NCBI GenBank assembly: GCA_025923455.1
Contig: JAICFW010000058.1
Location: forward strand, 1 to 49,520
Length of the DNA stretch: 49,520 nt
Direction of reading: 5' to 3'
Source: Nitrososphaeraceae archaeon
Lineage (GTDB): Archaea; Thermoproteota; Nitrososphaeria; Nitrososphaerales; Nitrososphaeraceae
The notes under the pieces were generated by a model. It made no database searches. It saw nothing but the letters and a program-made list of their open reading frames with translations, and had not been told where the DNA came from. The position numbers and the translations under genes were made by a program. Shown piece by piece: positions 16,713 through 48,976 of the stretch. The first letter of the stretch is position 1. The number at the start of each line of letters is the position of its first letter.

Positions 16713-17867
16713 TCATTTTAACCTAACTACTGGAAGTATCAGTAGAATAATAACCAAGGCTCCTAATAACCAAGCCATCTCATATCCCAGGCCGCTCACT
16801 ATACTGGAAAATAAGACCGGAACCCAGAAGACCCCGAATAACGAAACACCATTTACGAAACTTACGGCAAGGGTCTGATACTGAGGTTGTGCCTTGTTGA
16901 TTTCTTTTGCTTTTGCATATACTATTACAAAACCTGCAGATAAGAAAAATCCTGTTATAAGGATCGATGCCGTAATAACATATAGTGAATCGGTAGCAAA
17001 ACCCACCAAACTGGACGCACTAATGATACCTGAAATCAACAGTAAATTCCTTGCATTCCCAATCTTGTCGTAGAGTTTCCCGAAAAATGGAGATGAGACA
17101 AGGGCAACAATTAGACTTAGGCTTCCTATCAACCCGGCATCAATTGGATTAATCTTTAAATGATCTACAAAGTAGAATACACTAAAAGTCAAAATCATAC
17201 TCGATCCTGCTTGAAATCCTAGCAATGTGATTCCAAGGACTATTAATGATTTGTTAAATAGAGTGCTAAAAACACGAGATACCTTAATCTTAAACTCATT
17301 CCTTATTTCATCGGCATCCCTTAGTAGTGTACTGCCTAGAATAATGGCAGTAGATATTCCCAACCCGCCACTCAAAATAAGTGTCGATCTCCAACCAAAT
17401 TGTTCCGCCAATATCACCCAACCAAATAATCCAATAATTCCGCCCAAGGCATGGGCTGAATTTAGTAATCCAATACCCAGTCCTTCCGATTCCTTTCCTA
17501 AATATTTCGAAACTAGGATAACGCTTGGACCAAAGAAACATGCCATTCCTAAACCAATTATGAATCTCAACAGGGTGATTTGCGAAGTATTACTAGCTAA
17601 TCCAGTTACTAATGCTGCAGATGAGGCAATCATGATTCCATAGATGGCAATCTTTCTAGGACCATACTTTGCAGCAATGATTCCTGCAGGTACTTGGAAC
17701 AGACCTACACCAATGAGAAAGCTGGCACTTATTATTCCAAGCATGGCGATATCTTCTTTAAAATCGGAAGCGACTAGGTAGAAGATAGAAGCAATGTTAA
17801 ACCAATTGATTGTATATACTACTCTTGCAAGCATTAATGAAAGAGTTGCGATTTTATATGGCTTCAT
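16713..17867 (-). CDS. MFS transporter
   Basis: The 384-residue protein has about twelve membrane spans and MFS features: after span 2 the loop PAGIIAAKYGPRKIAIYG (motif A type), then LLRFIIGLGMACFFGPS, LLNSAHALGGIIGLFGWVILAEQFGWRS, and in the second half FFGKLYDKIGNARN. The substrate cannot be told; similarity in style is to nitrate/cyanate/small-acid carriers. It lies 74 bp downstream of the cupredoxin-cyclase gene on the same strand and may be co-transcribed or controlled by its signal. Confidence 0.87.
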   Translation of the reverse strand: MKPYKIATLSLMLARVVYTINWFNIASIFYLVASDFKEDIAMLGIISASFLIGVGLFQVPAGIIAAKYGPRKIAIYGIMIASSAALVTGLASNTSQITLLRFIIGLGMACFFGPSVILVSKYLGKESEGLGIGLLNSAHALGGIIGLFGWVILAEQFGWRSTLILSGGLGISTAIILGSTLLRDADEIRNEFKIKVSRVFSTLFNKSLIVLGITLLGFQAGSSMILTFSVFYFVDHLKINPIDAGLIGSLSLIVALVSSPFFGKLYDKIGNARNLLLISGIISASSLVGFATDSLYVITASILITGFFLSAGFVIVYAKAKEINKAQPQYQTLAVSFVNGVSLFGVFWVPVLFSSIVSGLGYEMAWLLGALVIILLILPVVRLK

Positions 17868-17941: not shown

Positions 17942-19000
17942 CTAGTTTTGACCCATGACTACGTAATATTCAGTAATGTCTTCAAAAGCTTTTATTTTTT
18001 CTTCTTTTATTTGAATAGTTTCCATATTGAATTTTTGTGAAACCTTTTCCTTTGTATATTGCGATATAACGATTTGATCGGCTTCGGATATCCCTTCCAT
18101 CCTGCTTGCCAAATTCACATGAGTTCCTATCACTGTAAACTGATCTCTTTCTTGACTTCCCATGAGTCCAACTAAGACAGAGCCAGTATTAATCCCGCAT
18201 TTTATATCTATATTTGTATCAAAATTAGTAACCGTACTCCAAATATCCAACCAATTTTTTTTAAAAAATTGGAATGCCTTCTTGATTTTTAGAGCTGCGA
18301 CAATCGCATTCGATGCACCAATTGAACCGTCATCATCCGTTTCCTTGAATCCAAAATATGCTAGTATGCCATCCCCAATGAATTTATCAATTATTCCACC
18401 ATATTCATGTATAATTGGAACGGCTACGCCAAGATATTCGTTGAGAAATACCGCAATGAGCTCCGGATGGTCTTTAAAGATTTCAGTCAATTTTGAAAAA
18501 TTACTGATATCCCAAAAGACAATGGTCATTACTTTATTCTGGATTAGGATTGCATGAGGGTCACTCAGATATTCAATAATTGCTGGGTCCAGTTGTCTTT
18601 GAAGACGAGTTAATATTTTTTGATTTGCATTGTCGGATATTGACAAGTTTAGGCCGTCTAAAAATCTAGCCTTCTCGTCTTCTGTCATCTGATCCTCGGA
18701 TTTAGGTAACATCCCAATCACGCCTCTTTCAGAAGGATGCATAGTGCAGTAATATGGTATACTTTGTTGATTACTATCGATCTTAACAGTTGTAGATTCC
18801 CCCGGCAGCATGCTTCCAGTTTGAAAGAAAGGACTTGGCAAAGTAGAGTTCGCATCCCCTGAAGTCAAGTTATGTACCTTTGTATCTAGATTGATCCAAG
18901 TTATTGATTCACCTTTGACAATCTTGACAATCCTAGGCTCAAAGTACGCTATTTCATTAGTATTCTCTTTGAATTTAGGAATAACTACAAATTGTTTCAA
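17942..19000 (-). CDS. cupredoxin domain fused to class III nucleotide cyclase
   Basis: The 352-residue protein joins an N-terminal blue-copper-like domain (about 10-98) to an adenylate/guanylate cyclase domain (about 150-350). Copper ligands visible are H43 in KVHNLTSG, and C85 and H88 in YYCTMHPSE; the axial Met usual at H+3 is E91, and M97 lies further on. The cyclase has both metal Asp (D164 in VFWDISNFS, D210 in FIGDGILAYFG) and GINTGSVLVGLMG and VIGTHVNLASRMEG, so it looks active. The start is TTG at 19000 with an in-frame TGA directly before it, so there is no room for a signal peptide and the copper domain should be cytosolic. Redox- or copper-controlled cyclic nucleotide signalling is inferred. 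Confidence 0.87.
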   Translation of the reverse strand: MKQFVVIPKFKENTNEIAYFEPRIVKIVKGESITWINLDTKVHNLTSGDANSTLPSPFFQTGSMLPGESTTVKIDSNQQSIPYYCTMHPSERGVIGMLPKSEDQMTEDEKARFLDGLNLSISDNANQKILTRLQRQLDPAIIEYLSDPHAILIQNKVMTIVFWDISNFSKLTEIFKDHPELIAVFLNEYLGVAVPIIHEYGGIIDKFIGDGILAYFGFKETDDDGSIGASNAIVAALKIKKAFQFFKKNWLDIWSTVTNFDTNIDIKCGINTGSVLVGLMGSQERDQFTVIGTHVNLASRMEGISEADQIVISQYTKEKVSQKFNMETIQIKEEKIKAFEDITEYYVVMGQN

Positions 19001-19181
19001 TCAATTCTAAATAATTGACAGGGAATATAACTTACTTTCGTTCTTTTTACCCTAATTTGGTTTCAGATGTTCATATTATTAAAACGTAAACTCGACATTA
19101 AACAAATACGATGTTCAAGATGTACAAGAAGATCTGTATTTCAAGAAAGACATTAATTATAGTATCGGGTTTTTACAATTT

Positions 19182-19328
19182 ATGGAAGGAATTCAAAAAC
19201 TAAAATGTAGCTCCTGCGGGATTACATTCATGTCTGAAAATAATAGTCCACTTTGTCCTACATGTTCTGAAAATGCAAGTGCTCATAATCATGGAGCAGA
19301 ACATAGTTGTGGCTGTGGTGGTCACTAA
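19182..19328 (+). CDS. 48-residue zinc-ribbon protein with His/Cys tail
   Basis: ATG to TAA gives 48 residues with C9-x2-C12 (LKCSSCG) and C25-x2-C28 (PLCPTC), a zinc ribbon. A second metal-like tail follows: HNHGAEHSCGCGGH. The tail has four His and two Cys in 14 residues, which could bind copper, nickel or zinc. It is transcribed divergently from the cupredoxin-cyclase gene, an interesting pairing for metal sensing. No upstream in-frame start is available. Confidence 0.7.
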   Translation: MEGIQKLKCSSCGITFMSENNSPLCPTCSENASAHNHGAEHSCGCGGH

Positions 19329-40889: not shown

Positions 40890-43055
40890 TTGGCAAAAGA
40901 TCCCATATGTGGCATGTTTGTGGAAGAAAAACTTGATTCAATCAGATACAGTACGAAAGGTAAAGAGTATTTGTTTTGCAGTAATCAATGTCTGCATGAA
41001 TTCATAGAGCCAGAAAAGGAGCTCAAGAAATTAAAAATTCACGTGGCGATAAGCATTGGCCTAACAATACCTATATTAATTTTGAGCTTGCCTCACATGC
41101 TTCCTACCCAATTCGGTCAATTTCTTCCTATGGACTTGATGCATAACTCAAGTTATATTATGTTGGTATTAGCTACCCCTTTACAATTTTGGATTGGCTG
41201 GAGATTCTATAAGGGCTTTTGGGACGGGGTTAAGGCAAGAGCATCAAACATGGATACACTTATAGCAATAGGAACTTCGGCAGCATATCTGTATAGCGCT
41301 GCAGTAACAATCACTCCAGATCTCTTTCCATTTAAAGCAGTTTATTTTGAAACTGCTGCTGTAATTATTACTTTGATACTTATGGGTAGATTGCTAGAAA
41401 CAAGAACAAAAGAAAGAGCTTCTATCGCAGTAAGAAAATTACTTGATTTGCAGCCACGTATGGCTAACGTATTGCGACCAACAACTAGTCCTTCTGGACA
41501 AATCCTCGAAACGGAAACTGAAATTCCTATTGAGCAAATTAGGGAAGGGGATATATTGATAGTTAGACCTGGTGAGAGTATTCCCACCGACGGACTAATA
41601 ATAGAGGGTGCATCCTCATTGGACGAATCCCCTATTACCGGAGAGAGTATTCCTGTTGATAAAACAAAAGGTGAAGACGTTATTGGCACAACTATGAACA
41701 AGACAGGCTTGTTAAAGATTAAAGCTGCAAAGGTCGGACAAGATACAGTACTCTCACAGATAATAAATCTTGTTGAAGAAGCTCGGACCGGCAAAGCTCA
41801 AATGCAAAGGACAGTAGATCAGGTTGCAAAATATTTTGTTCCTGCAATAGTTATCACTGCGATCGGCGTAGGGCTAGGTTGGTATTTTGTGGGAAACATA
41901 GGTTTCACATATAGTCTTTTAGCTTTCGTTTCAGTAATCATTATTGCCTGTCCTTGTGCCTTGGGAATTGCCACGCCAGCTGCATTGATGATGGGCTCCG
42001 CTAAGGCTTCTGAGTACGGTATACTATTCAAGGGTGGAGAATATCTGGAGATTGCAAGTAAAGTACAAACAATAGTATTTGACAAGACTGGAACACTAAC
42101 AGAAGGAAAACCATCTGTTACCGATATTTATGCTATATCTGAATCCAAAATTGGAGAAAAGGAATTGCTGCGATTGGCTGCTATTGCAGAATCGGGCTCT
42201 GAACATCCATTAGGACAGGCAATTGTAAGGAAAGCAAAAGAAGACAATGCGATTCCAAGTCCAGAATTAGCCGAATCAATTGCAGGGCATGGATTAATTG
42301 CGAAGTATCAAAACCATGTATTTATGGTAGGAACAAGGAAACTTATGGTTGATAATAAGATTTCAATTTCTCAAGATGTTGAGTCAAAGTTGAGCGAATT
42401 CGAAAATGAGGGCAAGACTGCTGTCTTGGTATCAATAGATTCTAAACTTTCTGGAATTTTAGCTCTTGCTGATACATTAAAAAATACTGCCAAGACTGCT
42501 GTGTGGTCCTTAAAATCTGATGGGAAAGAGGTCATACTGCTTACAGGAGACAATGAGAGAACAGCAAATCATATAGCAGCTGAATTAGGAATCAAAAATG
42601 TTATGTCCCAAGTTATACCACAACAAAAAGAAAAAGTAATCGCAAAACTCATGTCGGAGAAGAAAATAGTAGCCATGGTAGGAGACGGAATTAATGATGC
42701 ACCAGCATTAGCTAGAGCTGACTTGGGAATAGCTATTGGATCAGGGACAGATGTCGCAAAAGAAACTGGTGGTATTATACTAATAAAAGGTGACGTTAGA
42801 GACGTATCCATAGCACTCGAGCTAGGTAGGAGAACAGTTTCCAAGATTAAACAGAATCTTTTCTGGGCTTTTGCATATAATACAGGATTGATACCAATTG
42901 CTGGAGGTGTATTAGTTCCGCTACTCGGAGTCGGAATATTTGGATGGTTACCAATGTTGGCAGCACTGGCAATGGCTATGAGTTCTGTAACTGTAGTTGG
43001 TAACTCTATTTTACTTGGAAGATACAAACCAAATTTCTCTCATGCACCATTATAG
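40890..43055 (+). CDS. copA: Cu+-exporting P1B-type ATPase with N-terminal TRASH/YHS domain
   Basis: The 721-residue protein has P-type ATPase motifs: C354-P-C356 in the ion path (IIACPCALGIATPAALM), phosphorylated D398 in FDKTGTLTEGKP, SEHPLGQAI, GDGINDAPALA, and the C-terminal YNTGLIPIA and MSSVTVVGNS of copper carriers. Instead of HMA domains it begins with a metal module, C7 (DPICGM) and C30-x3-C34 (FCSNQC), a TRASH/YHS fold. Eight spans are expected. It should export Cu+ from the cytosol. The start is TTG. The AsnC-TRASH gene 3 kb away shares its operator and is the likely regulator. Confidence 0.93.
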   Translation: MAKDPICGMFVEEKLDSIRYSTKGKEYLFCSNQCLHEFIEPEKELKKLKIHVAISIGLTIPILILSLPHMLPTQFGQFLPMDLMHNSSYIMLVLATPLQFWIGWRFYKGFWDGVKARASNMDTLIAIGTSAAYLYSAAVTITPDLFPFKAVYFETAAVIITLILMGRLLETRTKERASIAVRKLLDLQPRMANVLRPTTSPSGQILETETEIPIEQIREGDILIVRPGESIPTDGLIIEGASSLDESPITGESIPVDKTKGEDVIGTTMNKTGLLKIKAAKVGQDTVLSQIINLVEEARTGKAQMQRTVDQVAKYFVPAIVITAIGVGLGWYFVGNIGFTYSLLAFVSVIIIACPCALGIATPAALMMGSAKASEYGILFKGGEYLEIASKVQTIVFDKTGTLTEGKPSVTDIYAISESKIGEKELLRLAAIAESGSEHPLGQAIVRKAKEDNAIPSPELAESIAGHGLIAKYQNHVFMVGTRKLMVDNKISISQDVESKLSEFENEGKTAVLVSIDSKLSGILALADTLKNTAKTAVWSLKSDGKEVILLTGDNERTANHIAAELGIKNVMSQVIPQQKEKVIAKLMSEKKIVAMVGDGINDAPALARADLGIAIGSGTDVAKETGGIILIKGDVRDVSIALELGRRTVSKIKQNLFWAFAYNTGLIPIAGGVLVPLLGVGIFGWLPMLAALAMAMSSVTVVGNSILLGRYKPNFSHAPL

Positions 43056-47765: not shown

Positions 47766-48539
47766 ATGAAACAAGAAACATTGAAGGCAAAAATTAAAGA
47801 ACGATATGGCAAAATTGCCTTGGAAGGTAACCCAGAGCGTTGTTGCGGTCCAGAATGCTGCAGCTCTTCTGAACCCAATCCACAAGTCTCATCGATTTCT
47901 GTCGGCTACAATGTCAAGCTATTAGATTCTATACCACAGTCATCAATACTTGGTCTGGGTTGTGGAGCTCCACTTAATTTCGCTAATTTAAAGGCTGGAG
48001 AAATTGTAGTAGATTTAGGCTCAGGTGCTGGAATAGATGCATTCTTGGCATCCAGAGAGGTTAAGGAAAATGGTAAAGTAATTGGAATAGACTTTACTGA
48101 TGAAATGCTAGATAAAGCAACCTCTGCGGCAAAAGAGAATGGATTTACCAATGTTGAGTTTCGAAAAGGAGACGTTGAAAATAACATTCCAGTTGATGAT
48201 AATACAGTGGACGTTGCTATCAGTAATTGTGTTATCAACTTGGCTTCTGATAAAGTTAAAGCATTCAAAGAAGTTTATCGCATCCTGAAGAAAGAAGGTA
48301 AGGGAAGGATAATAATTTCAGATTTAGTTACAAGTAAAGAGGTTGAGGGAGAATCAGTTAATGCTGAAAATTGGTGTAGTTGCATTGACGGAGCATTAAC
48401 AAAGAAAAATTACATTAACAGCATAAAGGAAGCGGGTTTTGAGAATGTCAGAGTTTTAAATGAACAGTTATACATGAAGGAAGATAAGACTGGTGGAAGA
48501 AATATATCAAGCATAATTGTCGGAGCAATGACAAAATGA
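47766..48539 (+). CDS. arsM: arsenite S-adenosylmethionine methyltransferase
   Basis: The 257-residue protein has the SAM site VVDLGSGAGID (81-91) and the arsenite Cys set in ArsM order: C66 in LGLGCGAP, C155 in SNCVINL, and C204/C206 in NWCSCIDGAL. The N-terminus has two further Cys pairs (RCCGPECCSS, 25-34). It adds methyl groups to As(III). The start codon is about 30 bp from a TATA-like core, so the mRNA is probably leaderless. It overlaps arsC by ATGA, so the two are translationally coupled. Confidence 0.94.
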   Translation: MKQETLKAKIKERYGKIALEGNPERCCGPECCSSSEPNPQVSSISVGYNVKLLDSIPQSSILGLGCGAPLNFANLKAGEIVVDLGSGAGIDAFLASREVKENGKVIGIDFTDEMLDKATSAAKENGFTNVEFRKGDVENNIPVDDNTVDVAISNCVINLASDKVKAFKEVYRILKKEGKGRIIISDLVTSKEVEGESVNAENWCSCIDGALTKKNYINSIKEAGFENVRVLNEQLYMKEDKTGGRNISSIIVGAMTK

Positions 48540-48976
48540 AAATATCATTTGGCAAGCCTAAATTAGAATCAGAAAGGATAATCCTTTTTGTGTGTGTGGA
48601 AAACGCTGGTAGAAGTCAAATGGCTGAGGGCTTCTTTAACAATAGTCCTCCAGAAGGATACAGAGCAGTTAGTGCTGGAACAAAGCCAGTATCGCAAATT
48701 AATCCTGTTGTTATTGATGTCATGAGGGAAGTTGGTATCGATATCACTAATCAAAAATCTAAGGAAATTACAGAGGATATGATGCGAAACTCTTTCAAAG
48801 CTGTGAATATGGGTTGCATGGAGAAGGATTCATGCCCGACACTATTTTTGCCAAATGTTTTGGATTGGAATTTGGAAGACCCCAAAGGTAAATCTTCTGA
48901 AAAAGTGAGGGAGATAAGAGATGAAATTGAACAGCGAGTAAAAGAACTTGTCGCAAGTATCAAAATTCACAAGTAA
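48536..48976 (+). CDS. arsC: arsenate reductase, low-molecular-weight phosphatase type
   Basis: The 146-residue protein has the P-loop C20-x5-R26 (FVCVENAGRSQMAEGFF) and the later Cys pair C94 and C100 (MGCMEKDSCP), as in thioredoxin-linked ArsC, and WNLEDPKGK near the catalytic Asp. It reduces As(V) to As(III), the substrate of ArsM. It begins inside the arsM stop codon (ATGA) and ends in overlap with the MIP gene. The family and role are clear. Confidence 0.93.
   Translation: MKISFGKPKLESERIILFVCVENAGRSQMAEGFFNNSPPEGYRAVSAGTKPVSQINPVVIDVMREVGIDITNQKSKEITEDMMRNSFKAVNMGCMEKDSCPTLFLPNVLDWNLEDPKGKSSEKVREIRDEIEQRVKELVASIKIHK

Follow-up and report, generated by a model that had tools for sequence, protein, structure and literature searches.

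A predicted cytosolic cupredoxin fused to a class III nucleotide cyclase in soil ammonia-oxidizing archaea, a candidate copper or redox sensor

What could a cupredoxin do in the cytoplasm, on the same polypeptide as an enzyme predicted to make a cyclic nucleotide? The question is raised by a gene in a 49,520-nt stretch of Nitrososphaeraceae DNA (contig JAICFW010000058.1; the whole stretch is referred to below as the window). The source genome (1.93 Mb, assembly 95% complete) contains archaeal amoA, and the host is thus an ammonia-oxidizing archaeon (AOA). A preliminary description had recognized in a single open reading frame a blue-copper-like domain ahead of a class III cyclase, and this architecture is confirmed, both Pfam domains scoring above their curated cut-offs. 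Its suggestion of a copper- or redox-gated cyclic nucleotide signal is supported in part. We give a probability of about one half to the reading that the cytosolic cupredoxin, with Glu in axial ligation, is a copper or redox sensor gating the cyclic nucleotide enzyme in several genera of soil AOA. Metal binding, the identity of the metal, the homodimer, the direction of gating and the physiological role of the fusion are predictions from sequence.

Architecture and start of the fusion gene

The gene and its parts are located as follows.

17942..19000, minus strand: gene of the cupredoxin-class III cyclase fusion, coding for 352 aa from a TTG start (ORF, Pfam, orthologs)
19025..19030, minus strand: TATA box TTATAT, centre ~27 bp before the TTG, kept in 8/8 orthologs
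18707..19000, minus strand: cupredoxin domain, residues 1-98, complete eight-stranded fold (PF00127, model, match to 5fc9)
18551..18706, minus strand: helical linker, residues 99-150, with an LxRxLDP segment ahead of the catalytic domain, transducer-like (helices in the model)
17945..18550, minus strand: class III cyclase catalytic domain, residues 151-352 (PF00211; 3r5g CyaB, Z 25.5; 1wc1 CyaC, Z 23.8)

The Copper-bind domain (PF00127) covers residues 18-91 (E 4e-6, 27.6 bits against a curated cut-off of 21.2), and Guanylate_cyc (PF00211) covers residues 158-347 (E 1.6e-18, 67.4 bits against 21.9). The full-length model of the fusion has pLDDT 82.1 and pTM 0.61, so that the placing of the domains relative to each other is uncertain. 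Within the linker, D138-P139 is invariant in the aligned fusions.

An in-frame TGA lies immediately 5' of the TTG start codon, which had been taken to leave no room for a signal peptide. The orthologs bear this out, as they retain both the stop and the TTG together with the TATA box: a GTTATATTCCCT-like element has its TATA centre ~27 bp from the TTG in 8/8 orthologs, and the sequence farther upstream is variable. In archaeal promoters, such a distance between the TATA box and the start indicates a leaderless transcript beginning at the start codon. With a leaderless mRNA from the TTG, a longer N-terminus, and hence a signal peptide, is therefore impossible. A wrong start codon was considered and is ruled out by the conserved stop and TTG and the conserved TATA box. 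Mean hydropathy over 15 residues peaks near the N-terminus at no more than 1.3 in the Glu-type family, compared with 2.5-3.0 in 7/8 complete cupredoxins of Met type sampled within this archaeal family. The export that characterizes blue copper electron carriers of the plastocyanin/amicyanin type is not found in the fusion, whose sequence indicates that the protein is soluble and cytoplasmic.

Predicted metal site and catalytic centre

The residues expected to form the metal site of the cupredoxin domain are encoded at the following positions.

18872..18874, minus strand: codon of H43, a predicted metal ligand, unchanged in all 20 cupredoxin domains aligned, fused or split
18746..18748, minus strand: C85 codon, predicted metal ligand, invariant in the same 20 domains
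18737..18739, minus strand: H88 codon, predicted metal ligand, invariant in the same 20 domains
18728..18730, minus strand: E91 codon, axial position, invariant in the 20 domains; occupied by Met in the ordinary cupredoxins of the same genomes

Modelled alone, the cupredoxin part has eight strands and pLDDT 91.7. Its best match among solved folds is 5fc9 (Z 14.6, rmsd 2.1, 94 residues), followed by 9cck (Z 12.9) and then by plastocyanins and amicyanins, so the structure prediction that had been proposed as a check yields a complete cupredoxin fold with strong matches to solved structures. Both the eight-stranded fold and the His-Cys-His ligand triad of cupredoxins are present. Across the 20 aligned fused and split domains, where mean column identity is 43%, the columns without variation are P22, I27, N37, H43, Y83, C85, H88, E91 and I95; in this alignment the loop of L046 is shorter by one residue, and the position of the Glu in L096 and L098, the two split forms with the longest loops, depends on an inserted loop. 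The Glu noted earlier in the axial position after CTMH is therefore a constant feature, E91 being invariant in all members, and the axial Met of the plastocyanin/amicyanin type is absent throughout.

This Glu separates the family from other cupredoxins of the same genomes. The DNA pattern [YF]xCxxHPxExG has 20 sites in 15/70 family genomes (3 matches for a reversed control pattern), and the Met version has 751 sites in 69/70. Nineteen of the 20 Glu-type sites are intact fusions; the remaining one (G323:C289) is a 192-aa ORF that looks like a fusion ending just past the linker. Since none of the 19 fusions is Met-type, these counts show that Glu goes with cyclase-linked cupredoxins and not with the other ones of HPxMxG type.

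Three known cupredoxins help to place the site. The closest solved fold, the purple cupredoxin Nmar1307 of Nitrosopumilus maritimus (5fc9), is 23% identical and has the CxxHP loop in common, but carries Arg instead of Glu at the axial spacing (loop CSFHPWR) and consists of one domain, with no cyclase attached. The preliminary description had compared the site to that of nitrosocyanin, the red copper protein of Nitrosomonas europaea, whose ligand set is His2-Cys-Glu. The comparison stands as far as the axial Glu and the shared cupredoxin fold (Z 10.6) are concerned; it fails in that nitrosocyanin is less similar than other cupredoxins, 5fc9 being nearer, and in that its Glu sits elsewhere in the polypeptide than E91. 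Nitrosocyanin also differs from the fusion in being exported and having no cyclase. Amicyanin matches the cupredoxin part with Z 10.5-10.9, and the loop spacing of the fusion (Cys, His at +3, axial residue at +6) is that of amicyanin, a periplasmic electron carrier with axial Met (98).

The catalytic residues of the cyclase domain are encoded as follows.

18509..18511, minus strand: D164, first metal Asp, invariant in 14 fusions
18383..18385, minus strand: K206, adenine-type base residue, invariant, aligned with Lys of CyaC and CyaB
18371..18373, minus strand: D210, second metal Asp, in 13/14 fusions, Gly in paralog L050
18134..18136, minus strand: T289, class IIIb-type base residue, aligned with Thr of CyaC and CyaB
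18113..18115, minus strand: N296, transition-state residue, invariant
18101..18103, minus strand: R300, transition-state residue, invariant

All six known catalytic positions are thus filled, and D164, D210, N296 and R300 are retained together in 13/14 fusions. The fold aligns with CyaB (3r5g) over 192 residues with rmsd 1.9. This complete catalytic set, together with the PF00211 match and the fold score, agrees with the earlier statement that the cyclase is intact with both metal Asp; the positions given then for H43, C85, H88, E91, D164 and D210 are those found here. The Lys/Thr base pair is that of the class IIIb adenylyl type, and the fusion cyclase is accordingly predicted to be specific for ATP, producing cAMP. 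The paralog L050 (2807-3874, plus strand) has Gly for D210 and Ser at 289 and keeps all four cupredoxin ligands; its cyclase may be catalytically dead.

CyaC of Arthrospira (Spirulina) platensis and CyaB of Pseudomonas aeruginosa share with the fusion the catalytic fold, the metal Asp pair, Lys/Thr and Asn/Arg. Their input domains differ from that of the fusion and, to our knowledge, neither has a cupredoxin domain. The photoactivated and rhodopsin-linked cyclases OaPAC, bPAC and RhGC likewise combine a sensor with a class III cyclase, but their input is light rather than a metal-binding cupredoxin.

Fused, split and cupredoxin-less forms

The search for the same domain pair in other genomes, suggested in the preliminary description, gave a clear result. 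Profile search detected 19 intact fusions in 15/70 Nitrososphaeraceae genomes belonging to genera g1, g2, g4 and g7: the window's genus has ten, G323 has three, G406 and G182 have two each, and G189 and G082 one each. Seven orthologs from independent assemblies, 81-96% identical to the window protein, all keep the stop and TTG, H43, C85, H88 and E91, and the four ligand residues are also kept in distant fusions of ~38-42% identity. Outside Nitrososphaeraceae, no fusion was detected at E<=1e-20 among 398 genomes of the phylum, and no full-length match beyond the family was found among 400 genomes of the class; bacteria at large were scanned only with peptide patterns of close relatives. Both domains are under strong purifying selection, dN/dS being ~0.05-0.10 in the cupredoxin as well as in the cyclase part (Nei-Gojobori, pairs with dS > 0.4; for the near-identical pair of the window and L001, dN/dS in the cupredoxin part is meaningless).

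In seven loci (L045, L046, L096, L098, L099, L100 and L101) the pair occurs in split form: a leaderless cupredoxin ORF of ~140 aa without a signal peptide is immediately followed or overlapped by a cyclase ORF of the same orientation. Genes that are adjacent or overlapping here and fused elsewhere therefore provide Rosetta-stone evidence linking the two domains. In the cyclase tree, the split cyclases cluster (94/88), whereas cupredoxin-less cyclases are nested among fused ones, and the fused/unfused label needs at least 4 changes. An old association with one fusion event, one split and several later losses is possibly the simplest story. Several relatives of the fusion cyclase have no cupredoxin, and the cyclase is thus usable without it. 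Taken together at the level of sequence, the many fusions, the adjacent-gene versions and the private conserved Glu support a functional link between cupredoxin and cyclase.

Some loci depart from the common architecture. L022 (G263:C59) is a fusion that has decayed to a pseudogene with C85, H88 and E91 all replaced, and the same genome has the split pair L045. A longer version of the fusion, of 571/572 aa (L043, 1456-3171, plus strand; L095, 1841-3553, minus strand), has extra domains flanking the cupredoxin-cyclase core on both sides; L048 is a related cyclase with a comparable tail and no cupredoxin.

Proposed mechanism, alternatives and genomic context

In the mechanism that we favour, His43, Cys85, His88 and Glu91 of the N-terminal domain would bind a metal, most likely copper. 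Occupancy of the site, or its oxidation state, would shift the linker helices, the helical segment 107-145 acting as transducer; this shift would alter the alignment of a head-to-tail cyclase homodimer and so raise or lower the synthesis of cAMP from ATP. The fusion would then report intracellular copper in AOA, which have a large inventory of exported copper proteins. Copper is the first candidate because the Cys/His/His copper set is complete and the host lives on copper enzymes. A carboxylate as axial ligand would lower the reduction potential of Cu, which suits a cytosolic site. Points against this mechanism are the neighbours beyond the genus, which are not copper genes, the failure to detect a PF00027 protein in the window's genome, the cyclase relatives that have no cupredoxin, the loss of the second metal Asp in L050 and the decayed fusion in G263.

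The same features leave some room for other readings. Copper might be permanently bound, with its oxidation state, or binding of NO or nitrite at an open site, gating the cyclase in place of copper supply. This variant, which we consider possible but rather unlikely, would also be served by a carboxylate-lowered Cu potential, and the N. maritimus purple cupredoxin, the nearest solved fold, is described as having an open type 1 site. NO serves as an intermediate in AOA (PMC6308003). However, the Glu that fills the fourth ligand position in all members makes the site less open, and the sequence offers nothing that separates redox or NO sensing from sensing of copper occupancy. Somewhat less probable still is a sensor of another metal (Zn, Fe or Co) on a cupredoxin scaffold, in which Met was replaced by Glu since copper was no longer the ligand. 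A His2CysGlu site could indeed also hold Zn or Fe, the cytosol contains almost no free copper, the invariant Glu stands where copper cupredoxins carry Met, and a cupredoxin-like domain of Bacillus anthracis is known from a zinc-bound and a copper-bound structure (4hcg, 4hcf); yet the fusion fully retains the Cys/His/His set with amicyanin-type spacing, and AOA are copper-rich.

The domain might instead bind no metal at all and serve as an interaction or dimerization module that recruits a partner or adjusts the cyclase dimer; standalone cyclases of the same clades do manage without it. We regard this as unlikely, since few residues of the domain are invariant and these include the three metal-binding side chains and the Glu, while other surfaces vary, and since C, H and E disappeared jointly from the decayed G263 copy. 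An anti-phage cyclase of Pycsar type with an unusual input domain is very improbable: the PADLOC PycC models do match the cyclase domain (best E 9e-24), but they match class III catalytic domains in general, the four neighbours tested match none of the effectors modelled in PADLOC, though a remote or unlisted effector may be present, base recognition is of the Lys/Thr adenylyl type, and throughout the genus the locus is stable and occurs once. The window does derive from a fragmented genome assembly; nevertheless, the chance of a fortuitous gene fusion or an assembly artefact is negligible, and this explanation is ruled out by the orthologs in independent assemblies, the ~20 loci, the low dN/dS and the conserved promoter.

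As to a receiver of the predicted cAMP, no CRP-type cNMP-binding protein (PF00027) was detected in the window's genome (assembly 95% complete). PF00027 is present in 28/70 family genomes, mostly in ORFs of ~560 aa. One of these was examined, L136 (1210-2883, plus strand), a protein of 557 aa in which a cNMP-binding domain precedes a region resembling thioredoxin reductase; ORFs of similar length with PF00027 occur in many family genomes. A classical cAMP receiver was thus tried and rejected, the domain being undetected in the window's genome and the relative examined being a thioredoxin-reductase-like fusion. Divergent from the nearest out-of-genus fusions lies a universal stress protein gene (L049, 3547-4053, plus strand; L094, 1404-1967, minus strand), and this protein is a candidate receiver because mycobacterial universal stress proteins bind cAMP (PMC11107214).

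Each of the two domain families is known, and a cytosolic Glu-type cupredoxin combined with a class III cyclase appears to be undescribed: in the open-access literature searched, we found no paper on the cupredoxin-cyclase pair or on nucleotide cyclases in Thaumarchaeota. Very few predicted archaeal adenylate cyclases are of class III (PMC8646023). If the copper or redox reading is true, the fusion would give class III cyclases a new type of input, show a cytosolic cupredoxin in the rare role of a sensor, and open a way into cyclic-nucleotide signalling of the heavily copper-dependent AOA. With the axial Glu private to this family, a single substitution would put the copper site to a direct test.

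The genes next to the fusion are those named in the preliminary description, a divergent His/Cys-rich zinc ribbon and a downstream MFS gene.

16713..17867, minus strand: MFS transporter gene, possibly co-transcribed, 74 bp downstream of the fusion on the same strand; same genus only
19182..19328, plus strand: 48-aa Cys/His-rich zinc-ribbon-like protein, divergent from the fusion; same genus only

Both the MFS gene at 74 bp and the divergent ORF are found in every ortholog of the genus with flank sequence, and they may share a promoter or operon with the fusion. Beside fusions of other genera neither was found, so these neighbours say little on mechanism; the neighbours of fusions beyond the window's genus are not copper genes. 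Assigning a function from the neighbours was accordingly rejected, the MFS, zinc-ribbon and VTT genes being syntenic within the genus only. The zinc-ribbon-like ORF ends in a HNHGAEHSCGCGGH tail and is 75-100% conserved in all genus orthologs; its product is possibly a metal-binding protein. Elsewhere in the window, a P-type metal ATPase with a CPC motif and a YHS-like N-terminus (40890-43055, plus strand) is probably a copper exporter, and a gene resembling arsenite methyltransferase, with one resembling arsenate reductase after it (47766-48976, plus strand), is accompanied by an HxlR-like regulator ORF on the opposite strand, as judged by eye.
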